Positions 4,596 through 27,702 of a stretch of 27,813 bases of DNA are shown piece after piece. The position numbers were made by a program, and so were the translations under genes. Source of the DNA: a virus; the IMG/VR virus record IMGVR_UViG_3300035199_000357, positions 1 through 27,813 of that record. One strand, 5' to 3'. Each line of letters opens with the position of its first letter. Position 1 is the first letter of the stretch. Under the pieces are notes generated by a model. That model searched no databases and was not told where the DNA came from. It saw nothing but the letters and a program-made list of their open reading frames with translations.

Positions 4596-5185
4596 CGTGT
4601 CCTCACTGGTCGTGGTTGTTTGTGTAGGCCGTTACTAAAACAGCCCCCTGGCCACACTGGCCTGGTGCAAGAATCGAGAGCAACTCCCGACTGGTCAACA
4701 ACACTGCCCTCTGGCATGTCGCACAGCTTGAACACCCGGAATTGATTCTCGTCTGGTGTGCGATTCCGCATCTGGCGGCCAGGCAATTGCCCCGCGTTTC
4801 GCTGAATGTGTTGGGCCACGTACGCTCTGAACTTTTCGAGGCAAATCAACGACCATCGGGCCACCCACAGGCCGTCCTCTGGCGGTGCCGCAAATCCATA
4901 GAACAGGAAATCTCCCCACCCGTCTTGTATTTTCACAAACTCCGAGTAGTCGCACTGGTCGCGAATCGTAAATTCTTCGCCGTATTTCTTCAGGTATTTG
5001 TGATCACGCACCCTGCATGACACACGCACGAGACGGCCGCCCACTGTCGCCATCATGTCTGTATTTCGCTGCATGTCTTCCTCTGGTGGGGCTTCGTAAA
5101 CATCGCCAAGGTAAGGCCAGAGACAAAGCTTGATATCCGGGTTGTATTGGTCGGACCACTTCCTCCCGTCTTCATACTGACTCAT
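4592..5185 (-). CDS. Conserved-looking hypothetical phage protein, 197 residues
   Basis: The ATG at 5185 (MSQYEDGRKW) follows GGATGGGG and overlaps the methyltransferase stop by 14 bp. Central motifs are KYGEEFTIRDQ, then VKIQDGWGDFLFYGFA and WSLICLEKFRAYV. Lone phage proteins with an EFTIR...GWGDWFFYGxA pattern and a late acidic-aromatic helix seem familiar to me, and a nuclease-like fold is possible, but I cannot name a family. It is coupled to the coiled-coil gene downstream. Confidence 0.55.
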   Translation of the reverse strand: MSQYEDGRKWSDQYNPDIKLCLWPYLGDVYEAPPEEDMQRNTDMMATVGGRLVRVSCRVRDHKYLKKYGEEFTIRDQCDYSEFVKIQDGWGDFLFYGFAAPPEDGLWVARWSLICLEKFRAYVAQHIQRNAGQLPGRQMRNRTPDENQFRVFKLCDMPEGSVVDQSGVALDSCTRPVWPGGCFSNGLHKQPRPVRTR

Positions 5186-6629
5186 GGCCCCATCCTGTGA
5201 ACCCCTCAATCTCGCGACGATTGAAAACGTCAAGACGGCGGCCTGGCGTCACGCGCCTGATCAGGTCGTAAAACTCCTCCGGTTTTTCCGAATGACCACC
5301 GCGTGGTGCAGAAAAGCAACAGTTGAACGCCTTCGTGTCCGCAAACTCCGGTTTCCCTAGCCTGGCATAAATACAGAATTCGCAGTTGTATTGAGGCAGG
5401 CCAAACGGCTGAAATCCGCCGGGCTTGTGCCAGACCATCGTTAGGACATAGCGAAATCCCCACGCTGCGACGGTCGAAATTGCGGCTGGTAGGAATTTCT
5501 GAGTCGTCCACATGAACAGATGGCAGTCGGCCGCGGCGACATCCTGCACAACAGAGAATTCCTCGATGGCTTCGAGCGACATCACCGGGTAATCCATGCC
5601 GACTTGGTTTGGTGCCACGTCGCGGTCAATCTTTTCCATCGGCCACGGGGGGTCGACCACGATCACATCATACCGGCTGTCGTCGATCGGCTCCTCGTCT
5701 CGCGACATGGCGACCTCTTCCAGGCCGGCACGTTTCTCCTGCACCTTAGAGAACACCCACGCATCACCACCGCGATTAGCGTCCAGCCAGAGCAGCCAGT
5801 CTTTTTGCAGGTCGGCGTGGTCGATTAGATCCGCGTGAACTTTCTCGACCAATCGCAGAATCTGGTTGACCTGCTGGTGCCTCAGTTTGCCGGAAAATAT
5901 CGCGGCGGCCGTTTCAGCCTCTTGAAACAGATCAATCAGCGGACTGGCCTTGACTGACTGCCAACCGTCAACCGCCTGCTGAACAGCCTTTATGACATTC
6001 ACCAGGCTCAGCTTCTTATCGAGCATGTACTGCACAGCGGGCAGCCACGCACCATCCGGCAAAGAATGTATGGCCGCCAGGTGTCGCGACCGGCCCAGCA
6101 GTGACTCCGGTGAGATGTCTGCCGATTCGGATAAAGGTGCACCACGTGGTGCACCTTTACTGGTGATCTGGCGAAACACGGTGGCGGCTTGTCTATAGGA
6201 CGAGACGTGCTGGCGCTGCTTGCCGATCTGTCTAGCATATGCGGAGAGCCCGCCAGCCTCGCCGCGGCCGCCCTTTGACAGCGGCACCTGTTGCAGTGCG
6301 TGAATGCCGATCTCTAGACCGTCCATTTCACCTTGATTGTTTGCCGTTGCGAGTTCCATGTGCGCCGCAGCATCGTCCAGCTCCCTGACCCAGCACCAGA
6401 TATCAGCCAACCCTGCCTTGATGGCCGCCGCTTTCCGGTGATGTCCTGACGTTATTTGAAACCTACCATCCAGCGGCCTCACGCTTATGGCGTGCTCCCT
6501 TGGATATTCGACGTCCAGTGAAGCGGCGATCGCGTCAATGACGTCCTGTCGCCTCACTAGCCGCGGGTTGTCTGGATGATCGTCAATCAGGTCGATCCTG
6601 ATCAGCGTCAATTCTGCATCCTGTGTCAT
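5172..6629 (-). CDS. ParB-like domain fused to MT-A70-type adenine methyltransferase
   Basis: 485 residues in three parts. Residues about 9-100 are a ParB/sulfiredoxin-type domain (IDDHPDNPR, then ITSGHHRKAAAIKAG). Residues 129-147 resemble the ParB helix-turn-helix (SAYARQIGKQRQHVSSYRQ). Residues about 318-480 are an MT-A70 methyltransferase with DPPW at 326-329, which would place a methyl group on adenine N6 using S-adenosylmethionine. The gene follows HNH by 3 bp. Modification of phage DNA against host restriction is the most likely role. A 28-bp palindrome lies inside, just after the HTH codons. Confidence 0.85.
   Translation of the reverse strand: MTQDAELTLIRIDLIDDHPDNPRLVRRQDVIDAIAASLDVEYPREHAISVRPLDGRFQITSGHHRKAAAIKAGLADIWCWVRELDDAAAHMELATANNQGEMDGLEIGIHALQQVPLSKGGRGEAGGLSAYARQIGKQRQHVSSYRQAATVFRQITSKGAPRGAPLSESADISPESLLGRSRHLAAIHSLPDGAWLPAVQYMLDKKLSLVNVIKAVQQAVDGWQSVKASPLIDLFQEAETAAAIFSGKLRHQQVNQILRLVEKVHADLIDHADLQKDWLLWLDANRGGDAWVFSKVQEKRAGLEEVAMSRDEEPIDDSRYDVIVVDPPWPMEKIDRDVAPNQVGMDYPVMSLEAIEEFSVVQDVAAADCHLFMWTTQKFLPAAISTVAAWGFRYVLTMVWHKPGGFQPFGLPQYNCEFCIYARLGKPEFADTKAFNCCFSAPRGGHSEKPEEFYDLIRRVTPGRRLDVFNRREIEGFTGWGHESV
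6132..6159. repeat. 28-bp perfect palindrome centred on CACGTG
   Basis: Each 14-bp arm reads TAAAGGTGCACCAC and its exact complement follows without a spacer. GGTGCACC, itself a palindrome, appears twice around ACGT. The site codes for KGAPRGAPL in the ParB-methyltransferase. The CACGTG centre is also the centre of bacterial parS sites. Confidence 0.9.
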
Positions 6630-6632
6630 TCC

Positions 6633-6935
6633 CTAGCCTCTCTCCATTTGTTCCCAATATGTCCACCAGTGGCACTCCATATCCCGTGGATCGTTCCACC
6701 AGTCCCCGATTGCATCAACGTGCCGGCCACGATGGCAAGCCCTGCACAATGCCGCCAGATCCCCCTCGCATTCAGTTCCCACCGTCTCGTAGTGCAGGTG
6801 ATGCAACTCAAGGCCCGCTGCCGCGCCGCAGTCTTCACACGCACCAGCGGCGCGGCCTTTGACCGCCTGGCGTATCGCTGCCGGGATCGGTCGAGATCCT
6901 GGCTGTGGTCGGTCGATACACTGCCGGTCCGTCAT
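6633..6935 (-). CDS. HNH endonuclease
   Basis: 100 residues from ATG 6935, which overlaps the upstream stop as ATGA. Two zinc-binding pairs, CEDC at 33-36 and CRAC at 64-67, frame the metal-binding core LELHHLHY (His45, His46) and a final His in CHRGRH. This is the HNH fold of small phage nucleases. It is located among replication genes rather than next to terminase, so a role in replication, recombination, or as a free-standing homing nuclease is possible. Confidence 0.85.
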   Translation of the reverse strand: MTDRQCIDRPQPGSRPIPAAIRQAVKGRAAGACEDCGAAAGLELHHLHYETVGTECEGDLAALCRACHRGRHVDAIGDWWNDPRDMECHWWTYWEQMERG

Positions 6936-7369
6936 CCGTTCCACTCCAGCTCCCCGGCTAGTTTCACCGCTTCGACGTCCGCCGGCCCAGCCGCCTGACG
7001 CTCGGCCAGTTTCTCCGCCCGGATCGCGCGGTAGTCGATCGGGTCGCGGCTGTGTGTCCGGCTGCCCTCGATCCGCAACTGGCCCGGTGTCGCCTCAGCT
7101 TGTGCGTCCTGTTGAATTCGCACACACAGTGACCGCAGCTTGCCCACGCTCGGGAATGGATCGTCGGCCAGGCAAAACCGATCGACTGCCGCTGACATAA
7201 TCTCAGCCGAATAGCAGCCGAGGTACTGAAACCACACTTCAAGATCCGTCTCTGTGAACGCCCTGCACCGTGTGGCCGATGCCAGCCGGGCCATGATTCC
7301 TGCGAACATTGGCGGTCCAATTTTTGGCGGCCTCGAGTGTTGCGTCTGTGCCTGCTGCTGGTTTTCCAT
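6932..7369 (-). CDS. Putative helicase loader-like replication protein
   Basis: 145 residues. After a Gln-rich N-terminus, FAGIMARLASATRCRAFTET and the segment WFQYLGCYSAEIMSAAVDRF...DDPFPSVGKLRSLC follow the pattern of small helical phage proteins related to the G39P-type helicase loader. It lies directly downstream of the initiator gene, as expected for a loader. ATG 7369 has GAGGG about 6 nt upstream but makes a 131-bp overlap with the initiator gene; ATG 7309 would reduce it. Function is inferred from pattern and position. Confidence 0.6.
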   Translation of the reverse strand: MENQQQAQTQHSRPPKIGPPMFAGIMARLASATRCRAFTETDLEVWFQYLGCYSAEIMSAAVDRFCLADDPFPSVGKLRSLCVRIQQDAQAEATPGQLRIEGSRTHSRDPIDYRAIRAEKLAERQAAGPADVEAVKLAGELEWNG

Positions 7370-8084
7370 TTCTACCCTCGTCTTTCCATTCTGATCGGTC
7401 GTCTTCCCATCGGTGATTGTTGAACCATGTCGCCGGGTGTGGGATGAACTTCTTGTCTGATCCTGAAACTGCGGCGGCGTACTCCGTCACAGCCGCCAGC
7501 AGTTCCGAATAGCCAATGTGTTTCAGTGCCTTTTCGATCGCCTTGTGAGCCACGCGTTTGCCGACATGTCGCGGGTAAGCTTGGTAAACGGCCTCGATGT
7601 CAGCGGCTGTTGATGCTGGCTTGATGCCAGTCTGATGCTGTTTTGATGCTGGTTTGATGCTCTTTCCTCTTCTATCCTCTCCTCTCCTCTTCTCTGGTTG
7701 CGCTTCTTGCGCAACATTTGTTGCGCTCGGAGCGTCACATTGTGACCGTGCCTTTTTCATCCTCTGGGCCGCTTGAGCCCTTGTTTTTGCTGGTTTTCCG
7801 TTGTGCCGGTTGTAATTCGTTAGCGTCAAATCGCCATCAACACCCGTCAGCCAGCCAACATCAATCATCGCATCAGCAGCACCATTGACCTGCATCAATC
7901 GGTCGAGCCATTTTCGTGTAACGCTGAGAGCGCAACCGGTTGATGTTTGTTGGTCCGCCCATATCCAGAGCCTCAGGCAGGCACCGACGACTGCGTTCTG
8001 GTCGACGCCCAGGATGTCGGCCATGTGGACGATTTCGGGTTTATCCGGTGTCGCGTGTTCAATTTTCAGCCAGTCGCCGGCCAT
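7239..8084 (-). CDS. Phage replication initiator protein (O-like)
   Basis: 281 residues. The N-terminal part (DWLKIEHATPDKPEIVHMAD, then LRLWIWADQQT and VTRKWLDRLM) looks like the winged-helix domain of phage replication proteins. The C-terminal part (YQAYPRHVGKRVAHKAIEKA...FIPHPATWFNNHRWEDD) is the domain common at the end of phage replication initiators and helicase recruiters. The hydrophilic linker, about residues 130-160, is encoded by the iterons and the polypurine tract. This arrangement, an initiator containing its own origin, is like lambda O. Helicase loader and HNH genes follow. Confidence 0.8.
   Translation of the reverse strand: MAGDWLKIEHATPDKPEIVHMADILGVDQNAVVGACLRLWIWADQQTSTGCALSVTRKWLDRLMQVNGAADAMIDVGWLTGVDGDLTLTNYNRHNGKPAKTRAQAAQRMKKARSQCDAPSATNVAQEAQPEKRRGEDRRGKSIKPASKQHQTGIKPASTAADIEAVYQAYPRHVGKRVAHKAIEKALKHIGYSELLAAVTEYAAAVSGSDKKFIPHPATWFNNHRWEDDRSEWKDEGRNGKPAAGTDATLEAAKNWTANVRRNHGPAGIGHTVQGVHRDGS
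7610..7664. repeat. Five tandem 11-bp iterons
   Basis: GATGC recurs at 7612, 7623, 7634, 7645 and 7656, exactly every 11 bp. The units read close to TTGATGCTGGT. Since 11 is not a multiple of 3, the protein does not repeat in step, so the conservation is at DNA level. It is a good candidate for initiator-binding iterons of the phage origin. Confidence 0.8.
7660..7726. other. Origin-like flank: polypyrimidine tract and inverted repeat
   Basis: Directly after the iterons, 35 of the 36 plus-strand bases at 7660-7695 are pyrimidines (a single A at 7674). Then GTTGCGC (7697-7703) and GCGCAAC (7709-7715) form a 7-bp inverted repeat with a 5-base loop, and a third GTTGCGC lies at 7720-7726. Such strand-asymmetric tracts and inverted repeats next to iterons are typical of lambdoid origins. 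Confidence 0.6.
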
Positions 8085-26490: not shown

Positions 26491-27702
26491 TCAGGCCCTC
26501 TCTGCTGTGTTGCCGGTGAGCGATTCCCAACGCTTCACGATCACATCGCAATACTGCGGACTGATCTCCAAGCCGTAACATTTGCGGTTGAGTTGTTCAG
26601 ATGCGATCACAGCAGTTCCTGAACCCAGGAATGGATCATAAATCAATTCCCGACGTGGCGTGCTGTTGCTGATCGCCTTTGATACCAGCTCGACTGGTTT
26701 ACTCGTCGGGTGATCGACAGACTTATCTCCGCGGTCAAACTCCCAGACCGTGTCCTGGGAGCGATCCTCAACTGCGTGATGTGACGCCCCCGGCTTCCAT
26801 CCGTAGAACACCATCTCATGTCGGAAATGATAATCGCTTCGGCCAAACACGAACGCATGCTTCACCCAAACAATCATCTGACGGAGAATGCCAGCATCCA
26901 AGAGCCACGATGCAAATCCGACGCCTGCTGGCCCTGGTGGCCCTGCCACGTACCAGCAGGCCCCATCTTTCGTCATGTCGACCGCGTGTGATAATGACGG
27001 GACAACGACGGATAAAAACTGTTCAGAGTCATCGTTGTGAACCACTCCGCCGGATCGGTGAGTCTTTCGCCGGGGATCTTTGGTCCCGCCAACGTGGTTC
27101 ACACCATAAGGCGGATCTGTGAACAGCATGCTCGCCGTCTCTCCACCCATCAACCGCCCCACGTCATCCGTGTTCGTTGAGTCCCCGCACAACACGCGAT
27201 GATCTCCAAGCACCCACAGGTCACCCGGCTGTGTGATCGGATCGACTGGCGGGTCCGGTACCTGATCCTCGATGATATCCGGTGTGGTTGAAACCCCGGC
27301 ATCCTCGGCAATCCCATCGACCACGCTTTGCAGGTCGTCGGAATTGATCGTCATGTGAGAAATCAGATCGCTGAGCTTTTCGGCGTCGGCCGTTGCCATC
27401 GCCGCCAGCGGATCGAGTGTGGCCAATAGCTTGTCCGCCTCGTCTTCGCTGACGTCGAGCACCAGCACCGGCACCAGTTCGTCGCCCGCGGTTTCCTGCC
27501 GCAGGTGTCCGTCGATCAATTGTAGTTTGCCGTCGTCGATCTCTCTGGCAATCATCGCGTCGGCGAATCCGATCTCATCGAGTGCGGCCGCCATCGCCCG
27601 CTGTTGTGCTGGTGGATGTTGCCGCCAGTTTTTCGGATTGGGAACCAGCGAGCTGGCAGGCACTCGTCGCAATTCTTTGATGCGGTCTTTGATGGCGGTC
27701 AT
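26491..27702 (-). CDS. ParB-like domain fused to DNA N4/N6 methyltransferase
   Basis: 403 residues. Residues about 14-100 form a ParB-like domain (VPASSLVPNPKNWRQHP, QLIDGHLRQE). From ~165 a beta-type DNA methyltransferase follows with LFTDPPYGVNHVGGTKDP (DPPY at 196-199), VFYGWKPG, HPTSKPVELVSKAI, and the S-adenosylmethionine loop DPFLGSGT at 356-363. It should methylate adenine N6 or cytosine N4. It heads the terminase operon, so marking phage DNA before packaging is a plausible role. Confidence 0.9.
   Translation of the reverse strand: MTAIKDRIKELRRVPASSLVPNPKNWRQHPPAQQRAMAAALDEIGFADAMIAREIDDGKLQLIDGHLRQETAGDELVPVLVLDVSEDEADKLLATLDPLAAMATADAEKLSDLISHMTINSDDLQSVVDGIAEDAGVSTTPDIIEDQVPDPPVDPITQPGDLWVLGDHRVLCGDSTNTDDVGRLMGGETASMLFTDPPYGVNHVGGTKDPRRKTHRSGGVVHNDDSEQFLSVVVPSLSHAVDMTKDGACWYVAGPPGPAGVGFASWLLDAGILRQMIVWVKHAFVFGRSDYHFRHEMVFYGWKPGASHHAVEDRSQDTVWEFDRGDKSVDHPTSKPVELVSKAISNSTPRRELIYDPFLGSGTAVIASEQLNRKCYGLEISPQYCDVIVKRWESLTGNTAERA

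Follow-up and report, generated by a model that had tools for sequence, protein, structure and literature searches.

Replication origins that lie inside the gene of their own initiator are a known kind, with examples in lambda and SPP1. The lambda origin is located in the O gene, and one strand of its opening region consists almost entirely of purines (PMC7466680, PMC5043065); oriL of SPP1 lies within gene 38, where direct repeats and an unwinding region are found in the gene of the origin-binding protein (PMC6316719). Iteron plasmids (P1, F, RK2, pSC101) place helically phased initiator-binding repeats beside an opening region (PMC5043065). The candidate origin described here resides in a 27,813-base virus record, analyzed over its whole length (the window), which carries terminase, portal, protease, head and tail genes on the minus strand. 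It resembles lambda-type origins, including those of Stx phages, in which the repeats bound by the initiator lie midway along its gene, ahead of the purine-biased opening region (PMC7466680, PMC5043065); in the window, the candidate lies between the two domains of the initiator, and a strand-asymmetric, low-stability region adjoins its repeated words, or boxes. In contrast to lambda, the repeat words are different, the boxes are much shorter, occur in both orientations and follow an 11-12 bp grid, and a GAGAA purine tract abuts the last box in the window's family. No lambda O-like family is present among the PHROG matches of the initiator, as judged from those matches. With SPP1 oriL, the locus shares repeats and a presumed opening region inside the gene of the origin-binding protein, but G39P is the known loader of SPP1 whereas the downstream gene in the window is a candidate only. 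Helically phased repeats adjoin the presumed opening region as in iteron plasmids, although in the window the putative origin is the coding sequence of the initiator itself.

The initiator gene (7239..8084, minus strand) encodes a protein of 281 amino acids that matches the replication initiation families phrog_2509 across residues 1-163 (E 2.4e-51) and phrog_9474 across residues 3-259 (E 3.5e-43). Neither the protein nor its N-terminal domain matched any family in Pfam or NCBIfam, and sequence comparison gave no convincing relative of solved structure. The N-terminal domain (residues 1-111; 7752..8084, minus strand) was modeled by AlphaFold2 with a mean pLDDT of 86.9 as a winged-helix-like fold and is presumed to bind DNA. 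Foldseek matched it to phage replisome-organiser and DUF1376-type domains, and a fold search of the PDB yielded weak matches only, to MarR/CRP winged helices (best E 0.057). Initiators of the replisome-organiser/DUF1376 type are thus similar in the fold of this domain, and some of their linkers contain the same purine tract or GCATC arrays, but their boxes are different and the window's N-terminal domain has no Pfam match to DUF1376 (PF07120), nor did that of any of the 63 members tested. Linker codons 117-159 are without predicted secondary structure (pLDDT about 44-55). The C-terminal domain (residues 160-259; 7308..7607, minus strand) is helical in a model of middling to low confidence, matches phrog_270, phrog_9474 and phrog_9327, and is presumed to recruit the helicase machinery. 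A gene of 145 amino acids that overlaps the 3' end of the initiator gene (6932..7369, minus strand) has homologues directly after the initiator in L002, L106, L035 and L010, making its product a possible replication partner and perhaps a helicase loader. A G39P-like identity was not established for it, as Inhibitor_G39P was matched in a single relative only (E 0.3) and a PDB search gave no match to it.

Read along the gene strand, the linker contains GTGACGC, GCGCAAC, GTTGCGC and GCGCAAC, then a 36-base purine tract interrupted by one T, and then five GCATC units, all within codons 113-158 and inside the part predicted to be disordered. The tract-proximal box, GCGCAAC (7697..7703, minus strand), adjoins a C and the purine tract, as it does in relatives. 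Measured from this box, a GTTGCGC in the opposite orientation (7709..7715, minus strand) lies at 14 bp, a GCGCAAC in the same orientation (7720..7726, minus strand) at 23 bp, and the variant GTGACGC, a box in direct orientation, opposite to the proximal one (7732..7738, minus strand), at 37 bp. The purine tract (7660..7695, minus strand), presumed to be the region of strand opening or loading, is kept in relatives. The GCATC units (7612..7660, minus strand) recur every 11 bp, and the tract together with the first repeats forms a local minimum of duplex stability (7630..7700) within the lowest 0.8% of the window's 50-bp segments. On the plus strand these features had been reported in a first-pass annotation made from the sequence without database searches, and they were recovered exactly: five GATGC starting at 7612, 7623, 7634, 7645 and 7656, a 36-base polypyrimidine tract with one A, and GTTGCGC at 7697-7703 and 7720-7726 with the inverse GCGCAAC at 7709-7715, all in linker codons of the replication protein. 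Its statement that the 11-bp period is out of phase with codons also holds, since the GATGC copies fall in codon phases 1, 0, 2, 1 and 0, covering all three frames.

Relatives were found by protein searches and come from viral contigs, from Planctomyces, Akkermansia and Verrucomicrobiales assemblies, from a Pusillimonas plasmid, and from phages of Escherichia, Salmonella, Klebsiella, Pseudomonas and Xanthomonas. In nearly all of them, short boxes occur in several copies, and a purine tract of the AGAGAAGAGAAG type comes immediately after them. The 21-base tract pattern alone identified at least 120 viral loci, and the N-terminal domain is encoded by 112 of the 120 listed. To control for bias, 80 loci were picked by protein alone from at least 549 relatives; the GAGAAG tract motif was present in 76 of these, and 67 contained a purine run of at least 12, compared to 3.5% of control windows. 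By these sequence comparisons, the box-tract layout inside the initiator gene appears to be common to hundreds of phages. In one relative (L013:5001-5480), the reading frame stops before the boxes and tract, both of which are still kept in the DNA, owing either to an assembly error or to a frameshift. A motif of C-runs, CCCCC-n-CCCCC, often with GGGGG after it, stands no more than about 45 bases past the 3' end of the tract in 13 of 99 related loci (L014, L025, L061 and L145 are examples); it is present in 0.45% of control windows. The same CCAGAGAAGAGAAG tract was also observed behind other initiator N-terminal domains and other upstream repeats (L129, L142, L116), which suggests that the tract may be a module independent of the DNA-binding domain.

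In order to separate constraint on the DNA from constraint on the protein, synonymous recoding was conducted with the protein fixed and codons redrawn at the phage's own usage in 20,000 trials. The longest purine run with one exception reached 35 (mean 14.7), so that the observed 36 is beyond the reach of recoding, and all five GCATC units were retained in 2 of the 20,000 trials. Arginine codons within the tracts of relatives are AGA in 95-100% of cases, compared to 10-11% elsewhere in the same genes, and in 70 of 85 elements copies of the same box word fall in two or more codon frames. Codon bias, the use of more than one frame and the recoding trials together indicate that selection at the boxes and tract is acting on the DNA rather than the protein, as far as this can be read from sequence. 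Across the whole window, no 5-mer reached more than three copies at any period from 6 to 30 other than 11, and in 200 Markov resamples of the window the number of period-11 copies never exceeded three. GCATC itself is not enriched in the window (95 copies observed, 107 expected); a genome-wide motif is therefore ruled out and the array is a local feature.

The first-pass annotation had taken the five GATGC copies for the iterons of the origin. Among the phages compared, the array follows the tract in this phage only; it is missing from that position in about 100 relatives and is absent from L182, a relative with the same boxes as the window, and this absence, which the annotation had itself named as grounds for refutation, rules it out as a conserved iteron. 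The linker comparison that the annotation had proposed thus gave a divided answer, with GTTGCGC-type boxes and the polypyrimidine tract conserved and the GATGC array not; the conserved initiator sites would be the boxes, which it had listed as no more than an inverted repeat plus one further copy. The array may have arisen by slippage, may be a second iteron set that came with recombination of the initiator, or may supply additional repeats to the region that would open; the last is the probable one, at low confidence. Period-11 GCATC arrays were also found in the linkers of other phage initiators (L152, L174 and L170). In L170, a DUF1376-like N-terminal domain and such an array are joined to a C-terminal domain that matches phrog_270 and phrog_9474, the window's own families, as would be expected if the array alone were a second iteron set acquired by recombination with an initiator of another family. 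This explanation is a minority possibility that we consider unlikely, as L170 is the one such case seen and the arrays of L152 and L174 go with other C-termini. A profile comparison of the window's N-terminal domain with that of L174 was not significant.

Box usage was measured in 101 nonredundant elements by counting the 5-mer adjoining the tract in the 89 bases upstream. Each phage's own 5-mer had a mean of 2.40 upstream copies, compared to 0.28 for the 5-mers of other phages and 0.17 in shuffled sequence, showing that box words (GTTAC, CGGAC, GTGAC, GCAAC, TCTAC and GCGAC among them) vary between phages and agree within each phage. Copies in the same orientation lie mostly at 11-12 and 23 bp and those in the opposite orientation mostly at 14, 25-26, 36-37 and 48-49 bp, a grid onto which all three distances in the window fall. 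Three residues of the N-terminal domain (109, 105 and 51) are the top columns tied to box identity, among domain pairs that are 30-45% identical; codons 105-109 (A105 to M109 in the window) lie at 7758..7772 on the minus strand. GTTAC boxes occur with T, G or S at 105 and V or Q at 109, CGGAC boxes with D or E at 105 and K109, GTGAC boxes mostly with A or S at 105 and Q or K at 109, GCAAC boxes with a small residue at 105 and M109, and TCTAC boxes with K105 and Q109. The closest relative, L002, whose N-terminal domain is 69% identical, has GTAAC boxes and T/V at 105/109, as read from its sequence, compared to GCAAC boxes and A/M in the window. The GTGACGC word of the window's variant box is also present in L069, a relative with M109.

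Two of these pairings, GCAAC with M109 and TCTAC with K105 and Q109, were predicted in writing before loci were retrieved by box DNA alone. Among retrieved loci with the N-terminal domain, all six with GCAAC had M109, with A or S at 105, four of the six being near-identical to each other, and all 15 with TCTAC had K105 and Q109, one of which (L046) was already in the earlier set. On a tree built without the helix carrying 105 and 109, residue 109 also changed on the branches of 16 of 22 box changes, where 3.4 were expected; control columns coincided with a mean of 21% of box changes, and 2 of 83 control columns about equaled or exceeded 105 and 109 by enrichment. A stricter pair test on well-supported branches gave no opposed pair in the main contrasts, with too few pairs for significance. 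As residues 105 and 109 track the box words and both predictions held, it is very probable that the initiator recognizes the boxes that its own gene contains.

Taken together, conservation, frame independence, codon bias and protein-DNA covariation support the reading of the linker element as the replication origin of the phage, lying within the codons of the initiator's disordered linker, and we regard this as highly likely. The proposal of a DNA-selected origin within the initiator gene is thus supported, without the role given to GATGC as iterons. The weak duplex at 7630-7700, an AT peak after the tract in relatives and the lambda precedent also count in favor. Against it count the GCATC array that occupies the place of this AT peak in the window; the tract of L002 (L002:4300-4450), whose gene strand is rich in pyrimidines, opposite in this to every other tract observed; the weak PDB fold match; the small number of pairs in the stricter branch test; and the cumulative GC-skew, suggested earlier as a check, which has its minimum near 18 kb and no turn at 7.6 kb. 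By analogy with lambda and SPP1, we infer a sequence of box binding, strand opening and helicase loading. Copies of the initiator would bind the GCGCAAC/GTTGCGC boxes through the N-terminal domain, with residues 105 and 109 near the bases and bound boxes about one helical turn apart. The complex would then open the DNA at the strand-asymmetric tract and in the weak duplex that follows it, and a helicase would be brought in by the C-terminal domain, perhaps aided by the protein encoded in the overlapping gene downstream.

As any self-recognition by the N-terminal domain would give the same covariation, the boxes could also be an operator from which the protein represses or tunes transcription within its own gene, the origin being elsewhere. 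We judge this improbable, as it leaves the conserved purine tract abutting the boxes and the AT peak beyond unexplained, and the protein matches replication-initiation families. Selection at the level of mRNA, with protein-bound hairpins of box pairs mediating translational autoregulation, has in its favor that inverted boxes could pair as RNA, but direct copies covary like inverted ones, boxes are spaced at about one DNA turn, the N-terminal domain is winged-helix-like, and an Rfam search gave no match, leaving it with very little probability. That tract and repeats are a by-product of a charged, low-complexity linker peptide is similarly far-fetched for the boxes and tract, given the codon bias, multiple frames and recoding results, even though the tract codes for E, K and R residues and slippage easily yields repeat arrays in disordered linkers; for the GCATC array alone it is possible.

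Beyond the linker origin of this phage, we lean toward a widespread, undescribed class of phage origins in initiator linkers, extending from Proteobacteria to Verrucomicrobia and Planctomycetes phages and prophages, in which a DNA-binding domain and its matching boxes are combined with a common GAGAA tract and a two-residue code makes origin and specificity readable from sequence. The literature searched, mostly without subscription papers, held no description of the box-tract module, its spread or the residue-box code, and searches for the purine tract or for YdaU with an origin likewise returned nothing describing the module; an earlier description is possible. If such a class is real, origins could be pinpointed at base resolution, and initiator specificity deduced from two residues, across a large set of temperate phages and prophages, among them the Rac-type elements found in 775 of 5426 complete E. 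coli genomes. The purine-rich linker, which might otherwise be taken for charged filler, would gain a function, and protein-origin co-evolution and the compatibility of prophages sharing a cell would become directly testable in laboratory E. coli. An active origin, oriJ, has been reported in the Rac prophage (PMC3945230). In Rac, ydaU of E. coli K-12 (b1359; L146) encodes a DUF1376 N-terminal domain and has repeated TGTTCAA-like words in its linker, and oriJ may lie there. Finally, elsewhere in the window, two genes (5172-6629 and 26491-27702, both minus strand) each combine a ParB-like N-terminal segment with a DNA methyltransferase segment.
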